NCBI RefSeq assembly: GCF_014930455.1
Contig: NZ_JAAIYO010000002.1
Location: 248,001-312,000 of the forward strand
Length of the DNA: 64,000 nt
Reading direction: 5' to 3'
Origin: Corallococcus soli
GTDB taxonomy: Bacteria; Myxococcota; Myxococcia; Myxococcales; Myxococcaceae
Shown here piece by piece: positions 15,709-31,492 of this stretch (its first letter is position 1; every line of letters starts with the position of its first letter). A model generated the notes under the pieces. The model was not told the DNA's origin. It worked only from the letters and a program-made list of their open reading frames with translations, and made no database searches. A program made the translations under genes and the position numbers.

Positions 15709-15924
15709 GTGGTGGATCCCGTCATCGCGCCACGCGACGCAGCGGGGGCCGAGGGATGGGGAGCGTGCGTCCCAAGCGGTTGATTTCCCAGGAAGGGTGA
15801 CACCCTGGCGGTGGGCCCCGGAGGCTGGCATGCGTCCTGCTCTGGGTCCGGGCATGCCGCGCAACGGCGGCGCCGGTTTCGCTCGCAAGGCTTGTTCCCC
15901 CTCGTCGGCCTCCCTGAGTCTGAA

Positions 15925-16944
15925 ATGTCCATCGCGCTCCCCCTCCGCTCGCCGTCCTCGCTTCCCCGTTCGAGCACCGCCGACCTCAAGCCGGTCTCCT
16001 CTCCGGCCCAGGGCGTGATGGGCTCCCCGGCGCAGCAGACCCGGAACGACCTGCGGCAGACGCTCATGACCGACTCCTTCGAACAGGCGGGCGGCATCGA
16101 GAAGACGCGGGCGCAATTGTCGGAGCTGCTGGGGGGGCTCGCGCAGTGGATGAAGTCGCTGGAGACGCAGACCCCCGGAGGGCAGGGTGGTGACCTGGGG
16201 CTCGGGTCGCAGGAACTCGCGCCCAGCCTGGGTGACGCAGTGGAGGGCGGTGCCCTGGCGTCCCTCCAGGGAGTTTCCTCGTACAGCGGTGCGGCCCAGG
16301 CCCAGCACGGGGTCGACCCGATGCATTCCAACCGCACCAGCGACGCGGGCCCTGGTTTCGGCGCGCCCTCCGCTGGGTCCACCGAGCAGGTGAGCGCGAG
16401 TGAGCCGTGGTTGGCGCGCAACAACGTCGGCTCGCCCTACAACAGCAACATGCTGCTCATCGACCCGAGCCAGAAGGGTGAATACAAGTACACGAACACG
16501 TTCACCAACAACACGGACAAGCCGCAGACCGTCACGCTCTGGAACAAGACGGGCGAGAAGGGCGGTCCGAACGACGGGCAGCACTTCGACAAGAGCACGC
16601 CGAAGACCTTCACGCTGGAGCCCGGCCAGTCACGGGTGGTGGCGTTCGACGCCAACAGCAGCGTCGCGTGGTGCGTGTCCAAGGACGGCTCGGCGAAGCC
16701 GGGCGCGAACTCCGGCCAGACCTGGGGCGAGGCGACGTTCGCGAACGCCGGCACGGGCTGGAGCGGCTACGACACCAGCCAGATCAGCCCCGCGGGCCAC
16801 AATGGCAAGATGTCCATCACGAACGATGCTGGCGGCCACACCGTCACGGAGGCCAATGCCTGGCAGACGCCTTCGGACGACCCGGCGGGCCTGGATGTCG
16901 GTGTCCCCGCCGGCCCGTTGAACCTGACCACCGTCTTCAGCTGA
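15925..16944 (+). CDS. Uncharacterised protein with beta-sandwich-like C-terminal domain
   Basis: 339 residues if started at the ATG MSIALPLRS; the frame is open upstream and no Shine-Dalgarno sequence decides the start. There is no signal peptide. The N-terminal third is Ser/Pro rich with a helical part (EKTRAQLSELLGGLAQWMKS), followed by a low-complexity linker. From about residue 155 a beta-rich domain begins (NNVGSPYNSNMLLIDPSQKG), with VTLWNKTGEKGGPNDGQHF and a single Cys in SSVAWCVSKDG. That architecture, Ser-rich helical leader plus compact beta domain, is like proteins exported without cleavable signals. No family was recognised. Confidence 0.65.
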   Translation: MSIALPLRSPSSLPRSSTADLKPVSSPAQGVMGSPAQQTRNDLRQTLMTDSFEQAGGIEKTRAQLSELLGGLAQWMKSLETQTPGGQGGDLGLGSQELAPSLGDAVEGGALASLQGVSSYSGAAQAQHGVDPMHSNRTSDAGPGFGAPSAGSTEQVSASEPWLARNNVGSPYNSNMLLIDPSQKGEYKYTNTFTNNTDKPQTVTLWNKTGEKGGPNDGQHFDKSTPKTFTLEPGQSRVVAFDANSSVAWCVSKDGSAKPGANSGQTWGEATFANAGTGWSGYDTSQISPAGHNGKMSITNDAGGHTVTEANAWQTPSDDPAGLDVGVPAGPLNLTTVFS

Positions 16945-17200: not shown

Positions 17201-17398
17201 GCGTCGAGCGCCGCTTCCGTGCATGTTCCCCGCATTCGCGGGGCTTCACGCATTCCGAACCGGGGCGCCCCGGTCAACTCCCGGAATCACGATGCTGTTG
17301 TATCTGAGTTGCATCTGTTGGAGTTGCTGTGACAGATTCGAGGTGCTCCGAATCCGCGTGAGTGTGTCGCTCCGCGCACGGAAACACCGGGAAACGTC

Positions 17399-18811
17399 AT
17401 GCATCCACGACCCCTCCGACTGGCCCTTCTGCTGGCCACGGCCATTCTGCTTACGAACTGCGGCTCAGAGGAGCCGGATGCGCCGGATGAGCCCGTCGTC
17501 GAGTGCTCCGGACACGGACACCTGCACGGCGACCACTGCCACTGCGACGACGGTTACGCCGCGGAAGGCCTCACCTGCATCCCCTCCGAGGAGCCCGTCG
17601 TCGAGTGCGGCGGACACGGACACCTGCACGGTGACCACTGCCATTGCGATGAGGGCTACGTGGAGGAGAACGGCACCTGTGTCATCTCGCAGGCGCCGGT
17701 GCTGGACTGTGGTGCGCATGGCCATGCCCATGGGGACCACTGCCACTGCGACGCGGGGTACGTGGAGCAGGGCGGTACCTGTGTCGCGGAGCCTCCGCCT
17801 GTCGACCCCGTCCTTCCCCGCTACACCGTCGTCCCCATCATGTATCCGGGCGGTACCGGCAGCTTCGCCCTGGAGTTGAATGACTCCGGTCAGGTCATTG
17901 GCAACGTGCGTTCGGCCGTCATCGCGGGCACGCCTCCTCCGCTCATCGCCTATCGCTGGAGCGGGGACTCCATCACCGAGCTGGGCATCCTGCCTGGCAG
18001 CAACGCCTTCAGCCGTGCGTATGGCATCAACGCGAGCGGTGTCGTCGTGGGCGAGAGCGACAACGACAAGCCCCGGGCGTTCCGCTGGGAGAACGGCGCG
18101 ATGACCGAGCTGGGCACCCTCGGGGGTGCTTCGTCCGTCGCGACCGCCATCAATGACAGCGGCGTCATCGTGGGCAGCGCCTCGAACGGTACGACCAGTC
18201 GGGCCTTTCGCTGGAGCGCTGGCGCGATGACCGACCTGGGCTCGATTGACGGGCAGGCCAACACGCTGGCTCGCGCCTGGAGCATCAACGGCGTGGGGGA
18301 TGTCGTGGGCGTCTCGAAGAACAGCCAGGGCATCACCCGGGCCACGCTCTGGACGCGCCAGGGCGGCATCGTGAACCTGGGGGCCCTGGACGTGAGCCAG
18401 GCCAGTCAGGCGTATGCCGTGAATGACGCTCAGCAGGTGGTGGGCTCCGCCGTGGTGGGCAAGACGGGCGGTGGCTCTCCCATCTACAACGCCTTCATCT
18501 GGAGCGATGGGACCATCCGCGGGCTCGGGACGCTGGGGAGCCTCCCCGCCGCCATCCACAGCGAGGCGAAGGCCCTCAACGCGTCCGGGTGGGCCGTGGG
18601 CTACGTCGGCCAGTATTACGGGAATGCCTCGTTGGGTACCGCCGCCGCTGTCCTCTGGGTCGATGAGGCCATCCACGACCTCAACACCCTGATTCCCCCG
18701 GGCAGCGGGTGGACGCTGCTGAGCGCCGAGGGCATCAACACCCGGGGCGACATCGTCGGGTTCGGTCGGCTCGATGGCGTGACCGCCGCCTTCAAGCTCG
18801 TCCGTCAGTAA
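17399..18811 (+). CDS. Lipoprotein with three His/Cys-rich EGF-like repeats and HAF repeats
   Basis: 470 residues. Signal MHPRPLRLALLLATAILLT with lipobox LLTNC. Residues 35-130 hold three near-identical units of the form ECxGHGHLHGDHCHC plus DxGYxxxG and TC: Cys spacing like a truncated EGF module, but loaded with His. From residue 140 the protein is built of HAF-type repeats (RAFRWENGAMTELGTLGG, AINDSGVIVGSA and variants; about seven), which likely form a beta-propeller. It is surface-anchored. The His/Cys units could bind metal (Zn, Cu or Ni); this is inference. A monocistronic gene. Confidence 0.88.
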   Translation: MHPRPLRLALLLATAILLTNCGSEEPDAPDEPVVECSGHGHLHGDHCHCDDGYAAEGLTCIPSEEPVVECGGHGHLHGDHCHCDEGYVEENGTCVISQAPVLDCGAHGHAHGDHCHCDAGYVEQGGTCVAEPPPVDPVLPRYTVVPIMYPGGTGSFALELNDSGQVIGNVRSAVIAGTPPPLIAYRWSGDSITELGILPGSNAFSRAYGINASGVVVGESDNDKPRAFRWENGAMTELGTLGGASSVATAINDSGVIVGSASNGTTSRAFRWSAGAMTDLGSIDGQANTLARAWSINGVGDVVGVSKNSQGITRATLWTRQGGIVNLGALDVSQASQAYAVNDAQQVVGSAVVGKTGGGSPIYNAFIWSDGTIRGLGTLGSLPAAIHSEAKALNASGWAVGYVGQYYGNASLGTAAAVLWVDEAIHDLNTLIPPGSGWTLLSAEGINTRGDIVGFGRLDGVTAAFKLVRQ

Positions 18812-18836: not shown

Positions 18837-18853
18837 ATGCAATCAAGTTGCAT
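18837..18853. promoter_or_regulatory. Operator candidate before the ABC exporter operon
   Basis: ATGCAA-TCAAG-TTGCAT, a 6-base inverted repeat with a 5-base spacer in an A+T-rich patch 33 bases before the ATPase start. The form resembles sites of Fur-family regulators (TGCAA...TTGCA), so metal control is possible. The match was judged by eye. Confidence 0.45.
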
Positions 18854-18885: not shown

Positions 18886-19590
18886 ATGCTTGAAGCGAAG
18901 AAGCTGTCCAAACGCTACGGCGAGCACCTGGCGCTGGAGGCGCTGGACCTGTCCGTCGGACCGGGCGAGGTGTTCTGCCTGCTGGGGGCCAACGGCGCGG
19001 GGAAGACGACGACGTTGAACCTCTTCCTCGGCTTCATCACCCCCACGCAAGGGGAGGCGCGGGTCGCGGGGCTGGAGGTTCGCCACCATGAGGCGCGGGT
19101 GCGCGGGCTGCTGGCGTACGTGCCGGAGCTGGTGATGCTCTACCCCCGGCTGACGGGGCGGGAGAACCTGGCCTACTTCAACATCCTGGCGGGCCGCCCC
19201 GCGCTGTCGTCGCAGGAGTCCAGCGCGTGGCTGGCCCAGGCGGGGTTGCAGCCGGGCGCGATGGACGTCCCCGTGGGCCGCTACTCGAAGGGCATGCGGC
19301 AGAAGGTCGGCATCGCCATCGCGCTGGCGAAGGGCGCGCGGGCGCTGCTGCTGGATGAGCCCACGTCCGGGCTGGACCCGCTGGCGTCCAATGAGCTCTC
19401 CGAGCTGCTCCTGCGCCTGAGTGGGGAGGGGCTGGCGGTGCTCATGGCGACGCACGACCTGTTCCGCGCGAAGGAGTCCGGCACGCGGGTGGGCATCATG
19501 AAGTCGGGCCGGTTGGTGGAGACGCGCGCCACGCGTGAGCTGGGCCACGCGGAGCTGGAGCAGCTCTACCTGACCCACATGCGTGGCTGA
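18886..19590 (+). CDS. ABC transporter ATP-binding protein
   Basis: 234 residues. Walker A GANGAGKTTTLN near residue 38, signature YSKGMRQKVGIAIAL near 131, Walker B ALLLDEPTSGLDPLA, and the switch His in ATHDLF. It is the ATPase of an ABC-2-type exporter. The two membrane subunits follow with 10- and 14-base gaps, so the three genes form one operon. A dyad lies just upstream of the start. The C-terminus ends LYLTHMRG. Confidence 0.95.
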   Translation: MLEAKKLSKRYGEHLALEALDLSVGPGEVFCLLGANGAGKTTTLNLFLGFITPTQGEARVAGLEVRHHEARVRGLLAYVPELVMLYPRLTGRENLAYFNILAGRPALSSQESSAWLAQAGLQPGAMDVPVGRYSKGMRQKVGIAIALAKGARALLLDEPTSGLDPLASNELSELLLRLSGEGLAVLMATHDLFRAKESGTRVGIMKSGRLVETRATRELGHAELEQLYLTHMRG

Positions 19591-19600
19591 GGACGGACGA

Positions 19601-21028
19601 ATGATTCGAGCCATCGCACGCAAGGAATGGGTGGAGCTGTCGCGTGACGGGCGCTTCCGTGCAGCGGGGGCCCTGGTGTTCCTGCTGGCCACCGTGGGTG
19701 TCGCGGTGGGCGCGCTCCACGTCCGGGAGTCCCGCGCCGAGCGCGAGGCAGGTGCTCGCCTGACGCGCCAGCACTGGCTGGAGCAGGGAGAGAAGAACCC
19801 GCATTCGGCGGCCCACTACGGCGTCTGGGCCTTCAAGCCGGAGTCGCTCCTGTCCGCGTTCGACCGGGGCGTGGAGCCGTACCTGGGCGTGGCCGTCTAT
19901 CTGGAGGCCCACAAGCGGAACGCCACCCAGTACCGGCCCGCGGCGGACGCCACCGCCGTGGCCCGCTTCGGAGAGCTCACCGGCGCGGGGGTCCTCCAGC
20001 TCCTGGTGCCGCTGCTCATCATCCTGTTGACCTACTCCGCGTTCTCCGCCGAGCGGGAGCAGGGGACGCTGCGCCTGCTGCTGAGCTCCGGGGTGCGCCG
20101 CCATCAGCTCGTGTTGGGCAAGGCCCTGGGCGTGGGGCTGGCGCTGGCGGCGCTGCTGGTGCCGCTCATCGTCGTGGTCCTGGGGATGGTGGTGTGGCTG
20201 GGCGGCGGCGCGGGCCTCCCCTGGGGAGACCTGCTCGGGCGGCTGGGAGGACTGGGGCTGGGGTATGGGCTGTACCTCGCCGGCTTCGTGTTCCTGGGGC
20301 TGGCGGTCAGCGCGTGCGCGCGCACCTCTCGCGGGGCCCTGGTGGTGCTTTGGGGCGCGTGGATGGTCAACGCGCTGCTGGTGCCCCGGCTCGCGGTGGA
20401 CGCGGCGCGCGCGTGGGCGCCGGTGCCCACCGCGCAGGACTTCGCCCGGAAGCTGGCGGAGGACTACGAGCAGGGGTTGAGCGGCCATGACCCGGCGGAC
20501 CATCGCCAGGCGGCGCTCGAGCGAGAGACCCTGGCCCGCTACGGGGCGACGTCCCTGGAAACGCTCCCCGTCAACTTCCGGGGCATCGCGCTCCAGGCGG
20601 GCGAGGAGTACAGCAACCGCGTGGGAGCGCTGCGCTTTGGCGAACTGGAGGCGCGCTACCACGCGCAGGAGCGCCTGCACCGTGTCTTCGCGCCGCTGTC
20701 GCCCATGCTGGCCTTGCGGCAGTTGTCGGCGTCGCTGGCGCGGACGGACCTGTCCACGCACCTGCGCTTCGCGAGGCATGCGGAGCAATACCGGCAGGGG
20801 CTGGTGAAGCGGATGAACGACGCCGTCACGTTCCGCTCGAAGTACGGCGACATGGCCTACAAGGCGGACGCGTCCCTGTGGCGCGAGGTGCCGGAGCTGC
20901 GCCTGGAGCAGGAGCGCTTCTCGGACGCGCTCGGCTCGCAGGTGCCGGGGTTGCTCCTGCTGGGGCTCTGGTTGTCGTGGACCATGGTGTTCGCACTGCG
21001 CGCCGGCGCACGCCTGAGCGCGGTTTGA
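19601..21028 (+). CDS. ABC-2 type permease (DUF3526-like), subunit 1
   Basis: 475 residues from the ATG at 19601, chosen over a GTG at 19583 because GAGGACGG is correctly spaced. One helix near the N-terminus (AAGALVFLLATVGVAVGAL) is followed by a long extracytoplasmic segment, then a run of helices from residue about 125 (LLVPLLIILLTYSAFSAERE, with the coupling motif EREQGTLRLLLSSG). A second long soluble part with many charged residues lies before the last helix GLLLLGLWLSWTMVF. This layout is that of DUF3526 permeases found with TonB-dependent receptors. Cargo is unknown. Confidence 0.85.
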   Translation: MIRAIARKEWVELSRDGRFRAAGALVFLLATVGVAVGALHVRESRAEREAGARLTRQHWLEQGEKNPHSAAHYGVWAFKPESLLSAFDRGVEPYLGVAVYLEAHKRNATQYRPAADATAVARFGELTGAGVLQLLVPLLIILLTYSAFSAEREQGTLRLLLSSGVRRHQLVLGKALGVGLALAALLVPLIVVVLGMVVWLGGGAGLPWGDLLGRLGGLGLGYGLYLAGFVFLGLAVSACARTSRGALVVLWGAWMVNALLVPRLAVDAARAWAPVPTAQDFARKLAEDYEQGLSGHDPADHRQAALERETLARYGATSLETLPVNFRGIALQAGEEYSNRVGALRFGELEARYHAQERLHRVFAPLSPMLALRQLSASLARTDLSTHLRFARHAEQYRQGLVKRMNDAVTFRSKYGDMAYKADASLWREVPELRLEQERFSDALGSQVPGLLLLGLWLSWTMVFALRAGARLSAV

Positions 21029-21042
21029 GGCTCGAAGAGAAG

Positions 21043-22464
21043 ATGAACACGTCCCTGCTTCGACACGAGTGGTTCCTGCTCCGCAAGGACCGGATGCTCG
21101 CCTTCTCCGCCGCGCTCCTGCTCGGCCTGATGGCGTTGGGCCTCTACAACGGCTGGCGGTTCACCCGCGACCTGCGCGCGCACCAGCAGCAGCAGGTCAC
21201 GCTGGAGACGGAGCGGCGCGCCCGCCTGGCGGCGGAGGCGGAGGCCCTGCGCCAGGGGAAGGGGACGGGGGTGCCCGCCTGGAAGAGCCCGGCGATGCCG
21301 GTGCCGGTGGGCAACTCGCTCGTCCAGCCGGAGGCCCTGCTGCCTCCGGGACCGCTGGGGGCGTTCACCGTGGGGCAGATGGACCTGCTGCCGTCCGCCT
21401 ATCAGGTGTCGCTCCAGGGTCGCCTCACGGACTTCGCGCGCGACACGCTGGAGCACCCGGTGCACCTGGCCACCGGCACGTTGGACCTGTCGTTCGTGCT
21501 GCTCTACCTGTTGCCCCTGTTCGCGCTCGCGTTCTCCTTCGACCTGGTGTCGCGCGAGCGCGAGGACGGCACGCTCCGGCTGGTGCTGGTGCAGGCCACG
21601 GGGCTCCGCGGCTGGGCGCTGCGAAGGCTGGCGGTGCGCGCGGGCGTCCTGCTGGGCCTGTGCGTGCTGGCGGGCGTCGCGGGCCATGCGTTGACGGGTG
21701 GGGCAGGGGGCCTGGGGCGGCTGGTGGGCTGGCTGGCCCTGGTGGTCGGGTATGGCGCCTTCTGGTTCGTCCTGGCGCTGGCGGTGAATGCGCGGGCCCT
21801 GAGCTCCGCCACCAACGCGCTGGTGCTCGTGGGCGCGTGGCTGGTGTTGGTGGTCGTGGTGCCGGCGGCGGTGCAGCTTGGCGTGAGCGGCCTGTATCCG
21901 GTGCCGTCACGCGTGGCGCTGGTGGGGGCCACCCGGGAGGCCTCGCTGGAGGCGCAGCGGCGCGGCAGCGAGGTGCTGTCCGCCTACTTCCAGGACCACC
22001 CGGAGCTGGCGCCCAAGGGGACCCAGGTGGAGGGCTACTGGCCCACCGCGCTGGCGGTGCAGGACGAGGCGGCCCGGGCGACCGCGCCCGTGGTGGCCGC
22101 CTTCCAGTCGCAGTTGGAGCGGCAGCAGGCCGCGCTCGGCGTGCTGCGCTTCCTCTCCCCGGCGCTGGCCTTCCAGCAGGCGCTCCAGGACGTGGCGGGC
22201 ACGGGGGGGCTGCGGCACGCGCACTTCCTGCCGCAGGTCGACCGCTTCCACGCCGCGTGGCGGGACGCCCTGCTGCCGCGCGTCTTCTCGGGGGACACGC
22301 TGGGCGCCGCCGAGCATGCGCGGCTGCCCCGCTTCGCCTACGTCGAACAGCCCGGCGCGGACGTCGTGCACCAGGTCGCCCTGGGCTTCCTCGCGCTCGC
22401 GTTGCCCACGCTGCTGGTCCTGGGGCTGGGCCTGACGTGGCTGGGCCGCCCCCGCCTGTCCTGA
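21043..22464 (+). CDS. ABC-2 type permease (DUF3526-like), subunit 2
   Basis: 473 residues from the ATG at 21043 (GAAGAGAAG upstream), 14 bases after subunit 1. It has the same plan: helix MLAFSAALLLGLMALGLYNG, an extracytoplasmic segment, then LLYLLPLFALAFSFDLVSRE with EREDGTLRLVLVQATG, four more helices, a second soluble domain and a last helix near the end (FLALALPTLLVLGLGLTWLG). It is a paralogue of subunit 1, so the exporter is probably a heterodimer with one type of ATPase. Confidence 0.85.
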   Translation: MNTSLLRHEWFLLRKDRMLAFSAALLLGLMALGLYNGWRFTRDLRAHQQQQVTLETERRARLAAEAEALRQGKGTGVPAWKSPAMPVPVGNSLVQPEALLPPGPLGAFTVGQMDLLPSAYQVSLQGRLTDFARDTLEHPVHLATGTLDLSFVLLYLLPLFALAFSFDLVSREREDGTLRLVLVQATGLRGWALRRLAVRAGVLLGLCVLAGVAGHALTGGAGGLGRLVGWLALVVGYGAFWFVLALAVNARALSSATNALVLVGAWLVLVVVVPAAVQLGVSGLYPVPSRVALVGATREASLEAQRRGSEVLSAYFQDHPELAPKGTQVEGYWPTALAVQDEAARATAPVVAAFQSQLERQQAALGVLRFLSPALAFQQALQDVAGTGGLRHAHFLPQVDRFHAAWRDALLPRVFSGDTLGAAEHARLPRFAYVEQPGADVVHQVALGFLALALPTLLVLGLGLTWLGRPRLS

Positions 22465-22522: not shown

Positions 22523-23278
22523 CTACTCCGAATAGTCAGACCGGGCGACGAGGCTCCAGTCGCGGTTGTACGTGTGGTACCGGGAGAACCAGCCGCTGTG
22601 GCAGCTGCCGCTGTTGCTGGCCGTGTAGCCGTAGACGAAGCCGTTGTGGACGCGGGCCTCGAGGCTGGGCGAGCCGGGGTTCTCGCAGGGCTGGCTGACG
22701 CGGACGGCCTGGTAGGCGGCCTCGGCGAGCACTTCTTCCTGGCCCTCGAAGTCGCGCAGGGAGTGGACGCGGTCCGCGGTGAAGGTGCCAATCGCGGTGG
22801 CCTGAACGCTGGCGCTCTGCGTGAGGAAGGCCTGCAGGTGGGCGAGGGTGGCGGCCTCGGAGGTGAGCGAGCCGGTGAGGCGGTGAACGGCGCCGTCATT
22901 GTCGGAGAGCGCGGCGCGGATGGCGGTGATGCCGGACGCGCCCTGGTAGACGGAGCTGTCACCCCAGGTGAAGCTGAAGGCGGTGCCGGCGGTGTAGGCG
23001 CTCAGCGCGCAGGAGCCTCCGACGCCAGCGGGCTCGACGAGGATGATCTTCCGGAGGCGGTGCTCGGGGTTCAGCAGGGCGATGCACTCGTTGCCAGCGA
23101 CGCCGTCATGGTTGGCGGCCGGGAGCACGGCCTCGACGATGTTGTAGACGCGGAACGTGGGATCCGTGGCCGACTGCTCGGTGGCCTGGAGGGTGTCCAT
23201 GTCCGCCTCCGCGCCGAGACAGCCGGCGGCGAGGGAGGCAGCGAAGAGGAGGGAAGACAGTCGGAGGGGGGTGCGCAT
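22523..23278 (-). CDS. Lipoprotein of unknown function
   Basis: 251 residues from the ATG at 23278, which begins a lipoprotein signal MRTPLRLSSLLFAASLAAGC; the longer frame would bury it. The mature part has four further Cys (ECIAL, SCALS, QPCENPG, SGSCHSG), likely in disulfides, and a C-terminus rich in Tyr/Trp (GWFSRYHTYNRDWSLVARS). No family was recognised. It is convergent with the ABC exporter operon. Confidence 0.75.
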   Translation of the reverse strand: MRTPLRLSSLLFAASLAAGCLGAEADMDTLQATEQSATDPTFRVYNIVEAVLPAANHDGVAGNECIALLNPEHRLRKIILVEPAGVGGSCALSAYTAGTAFSFTWGDSSVYQGASGITAIRAALSDNDGAVHRLTGSLTSEAATLAHLQAFLTQSASVQATAIGTFTADRVHSLRDFEGQEEVLAEAAYQAVRVSQPCENPGSPSLEARVHNGFVYGYTASNSGSCHSGWFSRYHTYNRDWSLVARSDYSE

Positions 23279-23929
23279 GGTCGTGAAGGATATCACGCCT
23301 GCTTTGCCCGGTTTCCGATCATTTCCATGTGACACCGGCCGTGACTTCGCGCCGCCTCTGGGCGCTGTCCGCTCCCTGCGTCGGCTCGGCGAAGGAGGCA
23401 TGGAGCGCGTCCATGCCACCTATGATTCGGAACCGAGAACGAAACCTCGAATGACCCCTGGCCCTGGACCCACACCTTCGCGGTCAAGAACGGCGTCCTC
23501 TACACGCAGGATCTGACCCTGGGGCGGGCCCATTGTCGCCTGGTGCAAGGTGGAGTCGCTGTGTGAGGAGAGTGCCTCGCTCAAGTGCATGGTGAGCAAT
23601 TGCGCCTGCGAGTTCACGAAGAACAAGCCTCTCATGGGACCGAAAAGCTGCTTCTTGACCAGGACGCCGCAGGCCTTGGATGAAGGCGGCGCCGCTGGAG
23701 GAGGGCTGGGCGATTGTCCAGTTCGCACAGCCCGTCAATGCATGCGCCCATCGCCACGCCTTGCTTTCGAGATGTTGCGGATGACCTGGGCTCCACCGTC
23801 AACCTATCCTCCGGACCGGGCAGGGGCTGGAGGTGAATTTCACTCAGAGTGGACTGGCGGCTGTCCATCTGCGAGAGTTCAGTGACCGGACACCGGGCGC
23901 TGTTGGCGACGCATCTTGGGGGCCGCTCA
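23279..23929. other. Gap with degraded coding traces before the toxin cassette
   Basis: About 650 bases without a sound gene. Pieces that look once-coding on the plus strand include NDPWPWTHTFAVKNGVLYTQ at about 23450-23510 and, in another frame, VAWCKVESLCEESASLKCMV and CACEFTKNKPLMGPKSC at 23535-23650. Base composition drops here relative to upstream. They may be remains of a gene belonging to the following effector cassette, broken by frameshifts. Confidence 0.4.
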
Positions 23930-25051: not shown

Positions 25052-26008
25052 ATGCCGACCAGCAACAAGAGTGCAATCAAGCAAGAGCGAAAGGCAAGAG
25101 TCGGGGCAAGCAACCCACCCAAGGACAGCAAGTTCCCGGAGCTGAAGAAAGGCTATCCCGAATCCTACATCCAGGAGTTGGCTGACTCCGATTCGTTCCA
25201 CACGGATCCGAATCAGCCGGAGACCTCGCTGCTCACGAGCGGCGACTACTATTCATATCGAGGACCCCGATTCATCTTCCAGGACGGGCCACGGATGAAG
25301 GTCTACAACGACTTCAGTCGCTCGATTTTCAGCACGGCGAGTGTCCTCTTCTATTACAAGAAAGGCCATCGCGTCGCGAATGAACCGCCCCTCTATGTCA
25401 CCGCCAGCCGGGAGAGATGGCTGCGTGTGGCTGCATTTCCCGAGAAAGATGGGGCATTTCCGGGAGGACTCGGAAACTTCTACTATCTCTCTCCCAATGG
25501 CCAGAGGCATCCCTATCCATGGCAGGCGCACCACCTCATCCCTCAGTCGGTGTTTTTCGAGAAGAACTCGCCATTCGACGCCGACATGATGATGGTGTTG
25601 AAGCGCTCCTTCTACAACATCAACAATGGGCATAACATCATCATGCTGCCCGCTGATCCGAAGTACAGCCCTGTCCATCGGCTCATTGCCCATATTTCCG
25701 ATCACCCCGCCTATACCCTCCAGCTCAAAGCCCGAATGCAGGAGGTCGCCACGGAGCTCAAGAAGATCTTCAACGAGGCCAAACGTACCAAGAAACATCT
25801 TGCGCTTTTCAAGGCCATCCTGAAGGCGCTCCACACGCTCGAAGATGAGTTCTGGTCCCTCGTCATCCTTCTGAGCAATGCTGCTGCGGCCACGGCTCTT
25901 GGCGTGATCAAGGAAGAAGACATTCATGCCTACGATGGAATGATCAAGTTCTGGACGACCGACGCCAAGAGCACGAAAACCCGGCACCTCTTCGGTGTCA
26001 TTGGCTGA
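25052..26008 (+). CDS. AHH-domain nuclease toxin
   Basis: 318 residues; strong AGGAGG before the ATG. The AHH motif is WQAHHLIPQ (His160, His161), followed by the helix/loop NINNGHNIIMLP and the conserved VHRLIAHISDHPAYTLQLK. These define the HNH/Endonuclease VII-fold AHH nucleases of polymorphic toxins, which cut nucleic acid in rival cells. The N-terminal 150 residues carry no PAAR, RHS or signal sequence, so delivery depends on a partner. A helical C-terminal tail (MQEVATELKKIFNEAKRTKK onward) follows. The next two genes look like immunity genes. GC content is below that of the flanking genes. Confidence 0.88.
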   Translation: MPTSNKSAIKQERKARVGASNPPKDSKFPELKKGYPESYIQELADSDSFHTDPNQPETSLLTSGDYYSYRGPRFIFQDGPRMKVYNDFSRSIFSTASVLFYYKKGHRVANEPPLYVTASRERWLRVAAFPEKDGAFPGGLGNFYYLSPNGQRHPYPWQAHHLIPQSVFFEKNSPFDADMMMVLKRSFYNINNGHNIIMLPADPKYSPVHRLIAHISDHPAYTLQLKARMQEVATELKKIFNEAKRTKKHLALFKAILKALHTLEDEFWSLVILLSNAAAATALGVIKEEDIHAYDGMIKFWTTDAKSTKTRHLFGVIG

Positions 26009-27144: not shown

Positions 27145-28344
27145 GTAAGCGTTCAGGTGGGATGGGCGGTTGAAGAAGGAGCAGGCCAGCAGCCGACGGT
27201 AGGCCTGGCGCTCGCTGACGCGGCGTGGGGCATGGGACACGGCGTGTCGTGGCCGAGGTCGACCCCAAGGATGCGCGCATCGCGGAGCTCGAGCGTCAAG
27301 TCGAGGAACTGACTCGACTGGTGCAGGAGTTGCGGGAGCAGTTGCGGCGCAACTCGGGCAACTCGAACCGGCCACCGTCGAGCGATACGCCGGGGCAGAA
27401 GGCGGAGCGGCGCAAGCAGAGCGGGAGTGGGAAGAAGCGCGGGGGGCAGCCGGGACACAAAGGCCTGACACGCGCGCTGGTTGCCGAGGAGAAGGTGAGC
27501 GAGTTCAAGCACCTCTTCCCGTCCGCGTGTGAGAATTGCTGGACTCCCCTCTCGCCCGAAGGCGGCACGCGGGTGCGGCGCTACCAATCCGTGGAATTGC
27601 CGCCGCTCAAGGCCCACGTCACACAGTGGGTGCGCCATGGCGTGGAGTGCCCCAGGTGCCAGCATGAGACGTGGGCAAGCACCGCGCCGATTCCGACGTC
27701 GCCCTTCGGTCCGCGGCTATCCGCCGTCGTTGGCCTTTTGACGGGCGTCTACCACCTGAGTCGGCGCTCGGCGGTGAGGCTTCTGGGGGATGTGCTGGGC
27801 ATCGATATTTCTCTGGGGGCGGTGAGCGCCGTCGAGGCGCGCGTCAGCGAGGCGGTGAAGCCCGCGGTGGACGAAGCCTGGGCCCAGGTGTTGTCGGCGC
27901 CGGTGAAGCACACGGACGGCACCCAGTGGCTTGAGGGTGGCCAGGCGCGCGCGCTGTGGACCATCGCCTCGTCAATGGCCACCGTCTTCAAGATTCTGAC
28001 GGACGGCAAATCGCGGACGCTCGCAGCGCTCTTCGGCCTGAAGCTCGGTGTCCTCGTGAGCGACCGCGCCACCGCGCTGAATTTCTGGGCCATGGAAGCG
28101 CGGCAGGTGTGCTGGGCCCACCTCTTGAGGAAGGCCATTTCCTTCTCGGAGCGCGACGGGCCAGCCGGAGCGATTGGGCGCGAGTTGCTCGACTACATCG
28201 GCATCCTCTTCGACTACTGGGGACGACTCCGGAGCGGCGAATTGCAGCGGGACACGCTGCAAGGGCGCATGGCCCCGGTACGCGCCCAGGTGGAGGCCCT
28301 GCTTGAGTGCGCGGTGGCCGCGAGGCTGCCGCACGTCTCCGGCG
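27145..28344 (+). mobile_element. IS66-family element, tnpC-only type, right end lost
   Basis: The left end is set by GTAAGCGTTCAGGTGGGATG, the usual IS66 start, which interrupts the immunity-like gene. Only the transposase lies inside, with no tnpA/tnpB, as in the ISBst12 subgroup. The right part is missing: transposase homology stops at 28344 and a different sequence starts. Confidence 0.75.
27225..28344 (+). pseudogene. IS66 transposase TnpC, C-terminally truncated
   Basis: The first ~373 codons are intact: N-terminal coiled coil (RIAELERQVEELTRLVQELR), the leader NSGNSNRPPSSDTPGQK, the zinc-finger region with Cys pairs (ACENCWTPL, VECPRCQHETW), and the DDE part with VKHTDGTQWLEGG and ARQVCWAHLLRKAISFSE. 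Homology ends after AARLPHVSG; the frame then continues for about 45 codons in unrelated DNA. The catalytic Glu and C-terminus (the NNHAER-type motif) are gone, so it cannot transpose. Start may be GTG at 27225 or 27249. Confidence 0.85.
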
Positions 28345-28366
28345 GTGAGCGTCAAGGTAGATGTCG
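28345..28366 (+). repeat. Group II intron-like 5' end (22 bases)
   Basis: GTGAGCGTCAAGGTAGATGT begins exactly where IS66 transposase homology stops. The same string, with two changes, begins at 62060 where an IS3 transposase is cut, and there continues as a longer intron-like 5' region. Only about 20 bases match here. Confidence 0.45.
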
Positions 28367-28398
28367 CGTGAGAGGGTTCCCCCATGCGTCAGGGAAGA

Positions 28399-28523
28399 CG
28401 TCGTCTCGGCAGACGGGCCGAGCTGACGATGTCCTCCGCGCGCCTCGCTCGCTCGCATTGACGCAATGCCCATGGTGGCCTTGAAGCACCCATGACGCAG
28501 CGACCGAATTCTGGGTACGCACA
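28399..28523. repeat. Dispersed TGACGCA-box element, copy 1
   Basis: Starts with a hairpin (CTCGGC-AGACGG-GCCGAG) and CGCGCCTCGCTCGCTCGC, then TGACGCAATGCC, and ends with the conserved right box ATGACGCAGCGACCGAATTC then TGGGTACGCACA (28492-28523). Copies 2-4 are at 34211, 38818 and 54966, all in the same orientation. Read on the other strand the box begins TGTGCSTACCC and is followed by spaced TGCGTCA repeats, as at IS21-type ends. Confidence 0.65.
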
Positions 28524-28646: not shown

Positions 28647-31070
28647 TTAGAGTCCGTTGGGGACCACGGTCACGGTGCCGGAGCCCCTGTTGGTCAGGAT
28701 GAGATCGGCGTACCCATCCGCGTCCATGTCCGCGGTGGCGATGGCGTTGAGGCCAGGCGAGGCGCCGGTCGTGACGACGGTGCCCGCGGTGAAGCCTCCG
28801 TTGCCGTTGCCGGTCATCGGGCGGACGCCGCCCGAGGCCGCTGTCACGAGGATGTAGGCGTCGAGCTTGCCATCGCCGTTGAAGTCACCGGCCACGACGC
28901 CCAGCGCCGAGTTGGCGGCCGTATTGGTCGCGGCGGTTGACTGAGCGCCGCTCGCGAAGGTGCCGTTGCCGTTCCCTCTGAAGTAGAAGAGGAACCGGCC
29001 GGCCGCGCCGTTCGAGAGGATGTCGAGCGTGCCGTCGCCGTTGGCGTCGCCGAAGGCGATGCCCGCCGTCTGGCCGCTGGCGGAATTGCTGTAGGCGACG
29101 GGTGCGGCGAACGTGCCGTCTCCCTGGTTGATGAGGACCGACAGGCGTGCGCTGGCGGGGCTCGTCACCACGATATCGGAGAAGCCATCGCTGTTCAGGT
29201 CACGGCACGCGATGCTCGACTGAGCGCCGCCGGTGCTTTGGATGCCGATGAACGTGGGTGCGCCGAAGCTGCCCGCGCCGTTGCCGAGCAGCACGCTCAC
29301 CAGGTTCTGGGTCACGCTGGTCGTGGCGATGTCAGCCGCCCCGTCGTTGTCGAAGTCCCCGGTGCAGAGGTGGACGGAGCCTGGGGTGCCCGTGGTGAAG
29401 CTCGTCGGCGCGCCGAAGGTCCCGGGCGCGCTCGAGCCCAGGTTCTTGTAGACGCTGATGTCTCCGTTGATGAGGGGCAGGTTGGTCTGGCCGTCGACGG
29501 TGACGGCGTCGAGCCACCCGTCGCCGTCCACGTCCACGGCCACGACCGCGTTGCTGGAGAGCGAGGCGCTCCCATAGTTGACCTCCGACTGGACGCTGGC
29601 GTCGCCATTCCCCAGGAAGACGGAGAGCGAGCCAGAGGGAGTCTGGGTCGACCCGGATTCGGCATTGGCCACCAGGATGTCGAGCTTGCCGTCGCCATTC
29701 ACATCGGCGACCGCCGGGGCCAGCGGGCTGTGGTTGGCGGGGGAGCTGACCGGCGTGCCGGGGACCTGGCCGGTGGGGGCGGTCTGGCAGGTGGCGTTCG
29801 AGCATATCTGTCCCGTCGAGCACACGATGCCGCAGGCGCCGCAACTGGCTGCGTCGCTCTGAAGGTTCACCTCGCAGCCGTCGGACGAGTTCGCGTTGCA
29901 GTCCGCGAGGGTGCCGGAGCAAGACTGGCAGATGTTCCCCTCGTAGGTGGGCGCGCACTTGCAGGTGTAGCTACCCACGCCGTCGATGCAGGTGCCACCG
30001 TTCAGGCAGGGGTTTGCGGCGCACTCGTCGATGTTGGTGCAGGTCACGCCGTCGCCCTCGTACCCCGCATCGCAGGCGCAGGTGAAGGAGCCCCCGGTGT
30101 TGGTGCAGGAGGCGTTTTCGTTGCAGTTGTCGGTACCGGCGGCGCACTCGTCGATGTCGGTGCAGGTCACGCCGTCGCCCTCGTACCCCGCCGTGCAGGC
30201 GCAGGTGAAGGAGCCCGCGATGTTGGTGCAGGAGGCGTTTTCGTTGCAGTTGTCGGTACCGGCGGCGCACTCGTCGATGTCGGTGCAGGTCACGCCGTCG
30301 CCCTCGTACCCGGCATTGCAGGCGCAGGTGAAGGAGCCCGCGATGTTGGTGCAGGAGGCGTTTTCGTTGCAGTTGTCGGTACCGGCGGCGCACTCGTCGA
30401 TGTCGGTACACACTGTCGGCTGTCCCGTGCAGGTGTAGCCCGGCTCCACCTGGCAGACACTGTTACAGCCGTCTCCGGAGAGCTGGTTGTCGTCGTCACA
30501 GGTTTCGGCTCCACCAATCACCCCGTCACCACAGAAGGCTCGGATGGACGTCTCCACCGCGTCCACCTGGTAGGCCCCGAACAACGCGCCCCGCAGGCGC
30601 ACGTAGCGATAGGGGTAGTTCCCGGGGTAGCTCGCCACCGCGACATGGGTCCCCAGGCCCATGTGCAGCAGGCTGGAGCCGACCTGGGTCCCATCCGCCT
30701 TCAGGAAGTCCACCTGGGCCACCAGGAACACCGACAGGCCATGGTAATAGACGCGCAGGTCGCCGGTGCCCTCCTCGCCCTGCCCCAGGTCCAGCACCAG
30801 CGCCGAGAGCAGGGTCGGTATCGTCGCCCGCTGCCCGTCCGGTGCGCCCAGCGCCCTGTTCGGGTGGAGAACCGCCGGCGTGGTGCCCGGCGCCACCGCG
30901 TCCGCATACAAGTCCCACGGCGGCGCGAGCTCCTGGCTCACCTGCGTCAACGCCTCATCACTTCCAGGCTCTGCCCCTTCGTCGAGGGGCTCCACACCAC
31001 AAGCGCCCAGTGACAAGGCCAGTGTCACGCCCAGCCCCCACGACCACAGCACACCTTGACGGCTTCGCAT
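28647..31070 (-). CDS. Surface lipoprotein: Cys-rich repeat, EGF repeats and FG-GAP propeller
   Basis: 807 residues from the ATG at 31070 (GGGGGAG upstream), which opens [20 protein letters not shown] with lipobox LGAC; the open frame upstream is not used. Order: a beta-sandwich region (50-180) with [20 protein letters not shown]; the myxobacterial Cys-rich repeat [16 protein letters not shown]; three almost identical EGF modules [20 protein letters not shown] and a fourth, [19 protein letters not shown]; then about seven FG-GAP/VCBS units ([43 protein letters not shown]) forming a Ca-binding propeller. It is probably a surface adhesin or matrix protein. A hairpin terminator follows. Confidence 0.93.
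30028..30411. repeat. Tandem 123-bp repeat encoding EGF modules
   Basis: Three copies of a 123-base unit inside the lipoprotein gene, each coding a 41-residue EGF module. Copies differ at only a few bases (for example NAG, TAG and DAG before YEGDGV), so they arose by recent duplication and can change number by slippage or recombination. Confidence 0.85.
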
Positions 31071-31492
31071 CTTGTTTCTCCCCCAAGGAGCAGGATGGAA
31101 CCCGGAATGGACCAGCCCCCCTATGGAACGAAAGACACTATTCCTCTCACCCTCCCGTTCGGCCAGCAACATGCAAATGGCCAGCGTCCTCTGGCGACCA
31201 GCCAGAAAGCACTTGAGAACCATGGACGCAGAGTCCATGACATGCATTTGAGCGCCTCCGCGAATCAGGGGGACGATGGGGGGGCACAGCGCACCTCCGA
31301 CTGCGCCGGTGAGCCCCAGGAGCGTGGGTGCTTGGAGCCCCAAAGGCGCTGAAATGCCTTCCACGCCTTCTGCTGGAGTCCTTGCGCCGGGGCATGTCAC
31401 GAATTGATGAGGGTTCTCCATTTCAAACGACAAATGTCAGAGTGGTATGGTTGTCTCCTGCTCCCCGGAATGCCTTCCGGAAAGGAGGCACC
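31071..31492. other. Divergent intergenic region
   Basis: 422 bases between the EGF/FG-GAP lipoprotein (-) and the astacin gene (+). It must hold both promoters. An inverted repeat CATGGA-CGCAGAG-TCCATG lies at 31222-31240, midway, and could be an operator. No other gene or clear -35/-10 pair was seen. Confidence 0.4.

Follow-up and report, generated by a model that had tools for sequence, protein, structure and literature searches.

A probable lipoprotein gene with three histidine- and cysteine-rich units

The window analysed here, a stretch of 64,000 nucleotides from Corallococcus soli, contains on its forward strand one open frame of 470 codons (17399-18811), which couples three small units rich in histidine and cysteine to a HAF-repeat beta-propeller. 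The frame begins with a signal peptide that leads to a probable lipidated cysteine, Cys21 (17399-17461, +), and continues through module 1 (CSGHGHLHGDHCHCDDGYAAEGLTCI, 17504-17581, +), recognised as a direct repeat and by a profile match in the search of its own genome, module 2 (CGGHGHLHGDHCHCDEGYVEENGTCV, 17606-17683, +), a direct repeat and the unit modelled with AlphaFold2, and module 3 (CGAHGHAHGDHCHCDAGYVEQGGTCV, 17708-17785, +), likewise a direct repeat. The first-pass annotation assigned the units to 17399-17800, but it is the gene that begins at 17399; the repeats themselves are 102-nt direct repeats starting at 17486, 17588 and 17690, and occupy 17486-17791. Each corresponds to 34 residues, and identity to the first repeat is 79% for the second and 61% for the third. 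Every unit contains exactly five histidines and four cysteines within 25 residues, so that the description as His- and Cys-rich holds while the earlier ranges of 5-6 and 3-4 are narrowed, and follows the pattern C-x2-H-G-H-x-H-G-D-H-C-H-C-D-x-G-Y-x6-C, which we number C1, H4, H6, H8, H11, C12, H13, C14 and C25. The sequence HGHLHGDHCHC, given previously as triplicated, is present in units 1 and 2, but unit 3 reads HGHAHGDHCHC.

The repeats have diverged in a manner that suggests selection on the core residues of the unit, as these are constant while the underlying DNA has drifted synonymously. Pairs of units differ by 3, 6, and 8 synonymous codon changes at 12 core positions, where the lack of any amino-acid change is by construction because these positions were picked as invariant in the three units. 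At the remaining 14 codons the pairs differ by 3, 2, and 3 synonymous changes and by 7, 9, and 5 changes that alter the amino acid.

The propeller directly follows the units, as was noted earlier (residues 141-470; 17819-18808, +), and matches TIGR02913 in seven stretches (E 9.1e-38; 127.9 bits against a cut-off of 22.65). A model of the full-length protein (pLDDT 81) is predicted to adopt the propeller fold, and its structural matches are propellers in the PDB, with CylK the closest among the best 50 of 980 (Z 29.7, rmsd 3.5, 288 residues aligned). Localization at the cell surface as a lipoprotein is probable: there is a lipobox-like stretch ahead of the first cysteine, and relatives have LGGC or FAAC at this site, but the window protein reads LTNC, and asparagine at -1 is unusual under the lipobox rule. 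Orthologues of the gene lie at loci L031/L071 (76% identity), L069 (71%), and L034/L078 (39%). Membership in the C_rich_MXAN6577 family (NF041328; MXAN_6577) was considered and rejected, with a score of 11.4 bits against a cut-off of 100.

The units appear to be derived from an EGF-like fold. The Pfam family EGF_Teneurin scores 24.6 bits with the whole protein and 33.7 with the module region (cut-off 24.3), and EGF_MSP1_1 (31.5 against 27) and Pvs28 (29.7 against 26) are also above cut-off in the module region. The best PDB match by sequence is a reelin EGF of identical 26-residue length (E 0.045), and the best by structure to the unit model is also a reelin EGF (E 0.36, TM 0.67), neither of which is significant alone; the top structural matches are EGF-containing chains, the best at this same E of 0.36. 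Aligned to the reelin EGF, the unit keeps cysteines C2, C4, C5 and C6, has leucine or alanine at the position of C3, and is missing C1. Canonical EGF disulfides pair 1-3, 2-4 and 5-6, and since the two missing cysteines are partners, one disulfide (C1-C3) would have been lost as a pair. The EGF-like spacing reported in the first-pass annotation thus holds as an EGF link, but each of the three window units has four cysteines rather than the canonical six; lacking the first and third EGF cysteines, it is no complete EGF domain but a derivative with four.

The AlphaFold2 model of unit 2, built on an alignment of 38 units, has a pLDDT of 92 and presents the HxH-GD-HxH segment as a hairpin; structure prediction was among the checks suggested in the first-pass annotation. 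In the 35-residue construct, strands are predicted at residues 10-13 and 16-19, on either side of G14-D15; in unit numbering the strands are G5-H8 and H11-C14. With a two-residue turn, H8/H11 and H6/H13 would be cross-strand pairs and the four histidines would lie on one face; the one-unit model contains no metal, and this facing is read from its secondary structure. Residues at the turn are as expected of two-residue turns, with GD in 52 of 68 distinct units, DG in five, DD and GS in three each, and five others once each. Two relatives that lack the histidines (L081 and L082) have VDGV and VNGI at the site of the turn, so the hairpin probably exists even without histidine.

Conservation and distribution of the unit

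The first-pass annotation, which proposed that the histidines bind metal, made their conservation in homologues a test of that proposal, and they are conserved. Among 68 distinct short units, a set that includes three His-less relatives (L081, L082, and L092), histidine is kept at position 8 in 64, at position 13 in 63, at position 11 in 54, and at position 6 in 50. The triad HxxHxH at 8/11/13, which is HGDHCH in all three window units, is retained in 52 of the 68, and within these position 6 is H in 39, E in eight, D in two and another residue in three (H, E or D in 49 of 52); glutamate and aspartate are the commonest substitutes for histidine there. None of the 65 units with H8 or H13 has lost both H6 and H11 (Fisher p 0.055, a statistic that ignores relatedness). 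The search pattern skips units with other spacings, and a long-loop form (HGHIHREPEGDWCHC) found in a lipoprotein family of ~217 residues from the same bacterial family lies outside the 68. The earlier proposal of a metal-binding decoration of an EGF fold is supported by these comparisons of sequence.

The same histidine pattern recurs in other myxobacterial lipoproteins, where it had been suggested to look, and it does so in several architectures. Of the order's 145 genomes, 59 gave matches at E <= 1e-3 to A1, a 28-position profile of the unit, and one of these (G036) has only His-less matches (L012 and L089). In the phylum set of 195 genomes, which contains the 145, 64 match at E <= 1e-4, and among those beyond the order at least G147, G149, and G194 match through His-less units. 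Units joined to a HAF propeller number two (L034/L078), three (the window and L031/L071), or five (L069); other proteins are made up almost entirely of three to six units (for example, L032, L033, L035, L055, L056, L057, and L076), and six is the largest number seen among relatives. In some, a central domain is flanked by a unit on both sides (for example, L038, L042-L044, and L024), including proteins of Nannocystis and Enhygromyxa with the same His pattern, and the 217-aa family combines a single long-loop unit with a further domain. In the both-ends lipoproteins (L024 and L038-L045, L037 in two frames), we note that the central domain is about 180 residues long and has GGPTSP and CGTCL motifs; the two members scanned, L038 and L024, have solely EGF-type Pfam matches.

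A pattern-based scan of contigs from 84,980 species gave 14 loci (L031-L044), two of which, L033 and L039, are labelled as lying outside the Myxococcota; their public records are Comamonas sp. KCTC 72670 and Candidatus Hydrogenedens. Because the module sequences of L033 recur at L077 and those of L039 at L075, in genomes of the family or phylum of the window, both records are probably mislabelled.

Zur-like palindromes and neighbouring genes

Two Zur-like palindromes flank the module gene. A degenerate copy (TGTATCTGAGTTGCAT, 17299-17314, +) has two mismatches and ends 85 bp before the start codon, and a perfect 17-bp box (ATGCAATCAAGTTGCAT, 18837-18853), found by sequence match and by a motif search of the genome itself, starts 26 bp past the last base of the gene and ends 33 bp before the gene for an ABC transporter ATPase. 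The latter matches ATGCAACNNNGTTGCAT, save T for C at position 7, and ATGCAACNNNGTTGCAT is the Zur box predicted computationally for Desulfovibrio znuABC-zur, as described in a 2004 comparison of delta-proteobacteria (PMC545781). The perfect box is 3' of the module gene and the copy before that gene has two mismatches, so the perfect one may serve the ABC operon only. An alignment of upstream regions places the palindrome TGCAAyNNNrTTGCA, perfect or near-perfect, before the module genes at L031, L032, L033, and L035, with a perfect 15-bp copy in the orthologous promoter of L031, and the TGTAT deviation of the 17299 copy recurs before the second module gene of the C. soli genome (L110:3246). 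The palindrome of the module genes is the same as the predicted Desulfovibrio Zur box, as given in PMC545781.

Upstream of 48 distinct module-bearing frames, a set that includes the four loci in which the motif was first seen (L031, L032, L033, and L035), the His-less L081, and two L037 frames that may be one gene, the palindrome occurs exactly in eight, with at most one mismatch in 20, and with at most two in 33; for eight distinct control palindromes the counts are 0, 0, and 2 to 9. The other 28 frames are without a box at one mismatch or fewer, and some of these sit behind a GTPase gene. Within the 9.44-Mb genome of C. soli the exact motif is found at only two places (control, 0), both of them module loci: 18837-18853 in the window, and C5:60223, ~1.6 kb ahead of the genome's one other module gene. 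Allowing one mismatch gives 13 places (control, 2), nine of which are at no obvious zinc gene, and two of the additional ones precede the gene for a ZigA GTPase (L111) and that for a TonB receptor (L110). The genome has two FUR-family genes.

Across 39 genomes (C. soli and relatives), the exact 17-bp form occurs at 20 places in 16 genomes (control, 0); for 12 of these a module gene lies no more than 2 kb away, three are on a different contig from the module gene, and five are elsewhere. Genomes G002 and G003 have module genes and lack the exact box. Among the five places elsewhere, the exact box precedes a ZigA gene at L133 and a GTP cyclohydrolase II gene at L134, and at L138:1502-3000 a perfect ATGCAAyNNNrTTGCAT box is followed by a FUR-family gene and then a ZIP-like gene (the ZIP match being below cut-off). 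We note that this last pair is a candidate zur-zip operon in a relative of the same order. At the other two of the five, L137 (G046) and L135 (G022), no zinc gene is linked, and the box at L135 precedes a frame for a membrane protein.

Downstream of the perfect box in the window are three transporter genes, for an ABC transporter ATPase (18886-19590, +; PF00005, E 2.9e-27), an ABC-2 permease with DUF3526 (19583-21028, +; PF12040, E 4.7e-29; PF12679, E 6e-27), and a second ABC-2 permease with DUF3526 (21043-22464, +; PF12040, E 1.1e-28), the first being ZnuG-like and the next ZnuH/I-like by gene order. In Caulobacter, znuGHI is described as Zur-repressed and as encoding an ABC-2 ATPase and two permeases (PMC4176598), and the segment 18886-22464 fits this make-up, with an ATPase, two ABC-2 permeases, and a box recognised by its sequence. 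Of 96 genomes in the family, 14 encode DUF3526, and among 14 control genomes Caulobacter alone does. Twelve of the 13 other family genomes with DUF3526 were covered by a count of boxes before the ATPase gene, and seven have one at no more than one mismatch, three of them exact, in a count made without a control motif; at L158, a COG0523-type gene lies divergent across the boxes. Three of the four genomes with HAF-fused arrays (G000, G093, G128, and G129) have DUF3526. However, DUF3526 ABC-2 transporters may not import zinc, and in a comparison of loci L031-L044 against the module gene and eight frames around it, only the module gene had a match, the ABC operon being among the frames that had none.

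A COG0523-type GTPase, of the zinc-chaperone family and recognised by GxxGAGKTT and CICC motifs in the examined flanks, is encoded at eight of the 14 pattern-scan loci (L034, L036, L038, and L040-L044) and also near L024/L048, L045, and L046; it is absent from the examined flanks of L031, L032, L033, L035, L037, and L039. Its presence at L034 is in company with a HAF-module relative. Three such GTPases were scanned, and for each the best model is that of the zinc metallochaperone ZigA (NF038288, cut-off 600), with scores of 650 at L133, 638 at L111 of C. soli itself, and 587 at L034, while the CobW models are below cut-off.

The second module locus of the C. soli genome (L110) encodes four small Cys/His-bearing lipoproteins, one of which is the 217-aa module protein, together with a TonB receptor that is fused to a TonB C-terminal domain and has HAHGHG in its plug. 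The best NCBIfam match of the receptor is to an iron-siderophore receptor (78 against a cut-off of 925), and one of the lipoproteins scores 34.8 bits (cut-off 27) with PF11617, whose name refers to the copper-binding protein MopE. As a whole, the segment L110:2247-10999 (G000:C5), with its lipoproteins carrying HxCxH-like stretches and its Zur-like boxes, resembles a metal-uptake island.

Probable zinc acquisition and alternative explanations

Because module genes carry Zur-type boxes and adjoin zinc-handling genes, we favour, at roughly three chances in four, the interpretation that the gene product serves zinc acquisition as a surface zinc scavenger induced by zinc starvation; it is the promoter palindromes and the neighbouring genes that point to zinc as the metal. 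A plausible scheme is that when zinc is scarce, Zur-type repression at the TGCAAyNNNrTTGCA boxes would be lifted and expression of the module gene would rise. The protein would then be exported and lipidated, probably at the outer membrane, and would capture zinc outside the cell. Each unit would be a reduced EGF-like fold in which disulfides C2-C4 and C5-C6 are expected and C1-C3 is lost, with the major hairpin H6-x-H8-G9-D10-H11-C12-H13 placing four histidines around a two-residue turn on one face. One zinc could be held per module by the HxxHxH triad of H8, H11 and H13 together with H6 (E or D in some relatives), in a PhtD-like manner, and tandem copies would multiply the zinc capacity. The propeller might act as a platform that docks a partner or ligand and from which zinc itself, or a ligand that bears it, is passed to other envelope parts such as the TonB receptor and the ABC system; the arrays would gather zinc on behalf of the TonB receptor or some other importer. 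In this scheme, we infer zinc binding, Zur as the regulator, the surface location, lipidation, and transfer. A broader proposal, which we consider probable although with less assurance, is that these proteins form a zinc-acquisition family of the Myxococcota in which the EGF C1-C3 disulfide was traded for a four-His hairpin site, which is deployed singly, at both ends, or in arrays of two to six, and which shares a delta-type Zur box with ZigA, the HAHGHG TonB receptor, and the DUF3526 ABC system.

Several other explanations need to be considered. The repeats could be ordinary EGF-like repeats whose richness in histidine is a matter of chance composition spread by slippage, which does generate tandem copies; this is very hard to reconcile with the synonymous drift beneath constant core residues, and with the occurrence of the His pattern in single-unit 217-aa proteins and in the both-ends proteins of Nannocystis and Enhygromyxa, so that the way the codons differ, together with conservation in architectures that are not linked, leaves it little plausibility. 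A scavenger built on the same module for nickel, cobalt or copper, under a Fur-family regulator of that metal, is unlikely but deserves more weight. Poly-His hairpins also bind these metals, COG0523/CobW proteins serve metals other than zinc, CobW models do score on the neighbouring GTPases, albeit below cut-off, and the copper-binding-MopE motif (PF11617) is present in a lipoprotein of the second locus. Nonetheless, all three scanned GTPases fit ZigA best, two of them above cut-off, and the box is that predicted for a zinc regulator and precedes the FUR-family/ZIP-like pair and a GTP cyclohydrolase II gene.

Zur control could also be accepted without zinc binding, the module being an adhesive or ligand-binding EGF variant, made in zinc starvation, whose histidines have a structural role or contact a ligand, be it organic or a protein. 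Interaction with other proteins is the usual role of EGF-like domains, and not every member of a Zur regulon binds zinc, yet we regard this as rather unlikely, since conservation is concentrated on the four histidines of one hairpin, with E or D the commonest alternatives at position 6, and HxxHxH is the zinc triad described for PhtD (PMC3842936). Finally, the array might be a sponge for storage or detoxification, made at high zinc, as the variation in unit number among relatives, up to six, could suggest. Zur is described as normally repressing when zinc-bound, so genes under Zur-type boxes would be made at low zinc (PMC6103462), and the neighbouring genes are of the uptake type; we therefore think a sponge improbable.

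Zinc scavenging remains the preferred role, and zinc-scavenging surface proteins as such are already known; what is added here to the first-pass annotation is the tie between the module and a zinc regulon. A close parallel is with the streptococcal Pht proteins, which are surface proteins of the zinc-repressor (AdcR) regulon with multiple HxxHxH motifs in short beta units, are proposed to scavenge for an uptake system, and in PhtD hold zinc by three histidines of HxxHxH and a glutamate as fourth ligand, as described in PMC3842936. The module differs in several respects: its triad is set within an EGF-like hairpin of four cysteines that are expected to form disulfides, the protein is that of a Gram-negative bacterium, a Zur-type box takes the place of AdcR, and the proposed fourth ligand is His, Glu or Asp at position 6. 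No Pht family or chain is among the listed Pfam and NCBIfam matches (E <= 10) or PDB chains (E <= 1), the HMMER filters being such that most weak matches are dropped. AztD of Paracoccus and Citrobacter, located in the periplasm or at the surface, is an exported beta-propeller protein, as the module protein is predicted to be, and is reported to hand zinc to a transporter component (PMC6689063), but its two described zinc sites are in the propeller, whereas the candidate sites of the module protein are N-terminal and its propeller is of the HAF type; AztD is not among the best 50 of 980 structurally aligned chains, which has no bearing either way. The Anabaena exoprotein ZepA is described as more abundant in a zur mutant and as mediating zinc uptake, and is a secreted, Zur-linked protein, as the module protein is proposed to be; its predicted site of three histidines, H-x(2-9)-H-F/Y-H, differs in spacing from HGDHCH, and the available text on ZepA mentions neither EGF-like cysteines nor tandem units (PMC10957091).

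The Caulobacter Zur regulon (znuGHI/znuK and zrpX) offers a likeness in gene content, with an ABC-2 ATPase and two permeases, a TonB receptor, and a COG0523 protein; however, its box is GTTA-N5-TAAC, and the available portion of that report mentions no module protein (PMC4176598). Zinc passage across the bacterial outer membrane was described as little known when that regulon appeared (PMC4176598). In the open-access literature we found no publication on a myxobacterial zinc regulon or on a His-rich EGF-like module, and the components collected here, namely the box, ZigA, the TonB receptor, the ABC-2 system, and the module lipoproteins, name a candidate for such a regulon. The EGF domain is usually a protein-binding or calcium-binding unit, and here it has apparently been turned into a repeated transition-metal site. 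Reelin and teneurin EGF domains share with the module four of six cysteines in their spacing, GHG, and CxCDxGY, but the module is without the first and third cysteines and has four additional hairpin histidines. In this the module would have converged on the HxxHxH triads of streptococci, and nature would here provide a small template for hairpins that bind metal. If the zinc-scavenging role is correct, then the number of copies would set the zinc capacity of the cell surface in these predatory, social bacteria.

Elsewhere in the window, a frame at 15811-16944 (+) has an Asp f 4-like allergen domain (PF25312, E 4e-38), and one of 298 residues at 22523-23419 (-) has a signal-like start and no Pfam match. 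The product of 25052-26008 (+) contains an HHLIPQ stretch, which we take to resemble the AHH-type nuclease end of a polymorphic toxin, and the frame at 27225-28484 (+) is presumably that of an IS66-like transposase, possibly truncated. The frame at 28647-31433 (-) appears by eye to encode canonical six-Cys EGF repeats of the calcium-binding type (DIDEC...) followed by FG-GAP-like repeats, and its EGF repeats have no histidine decoration, providing a natural contrast to the module within the same window.
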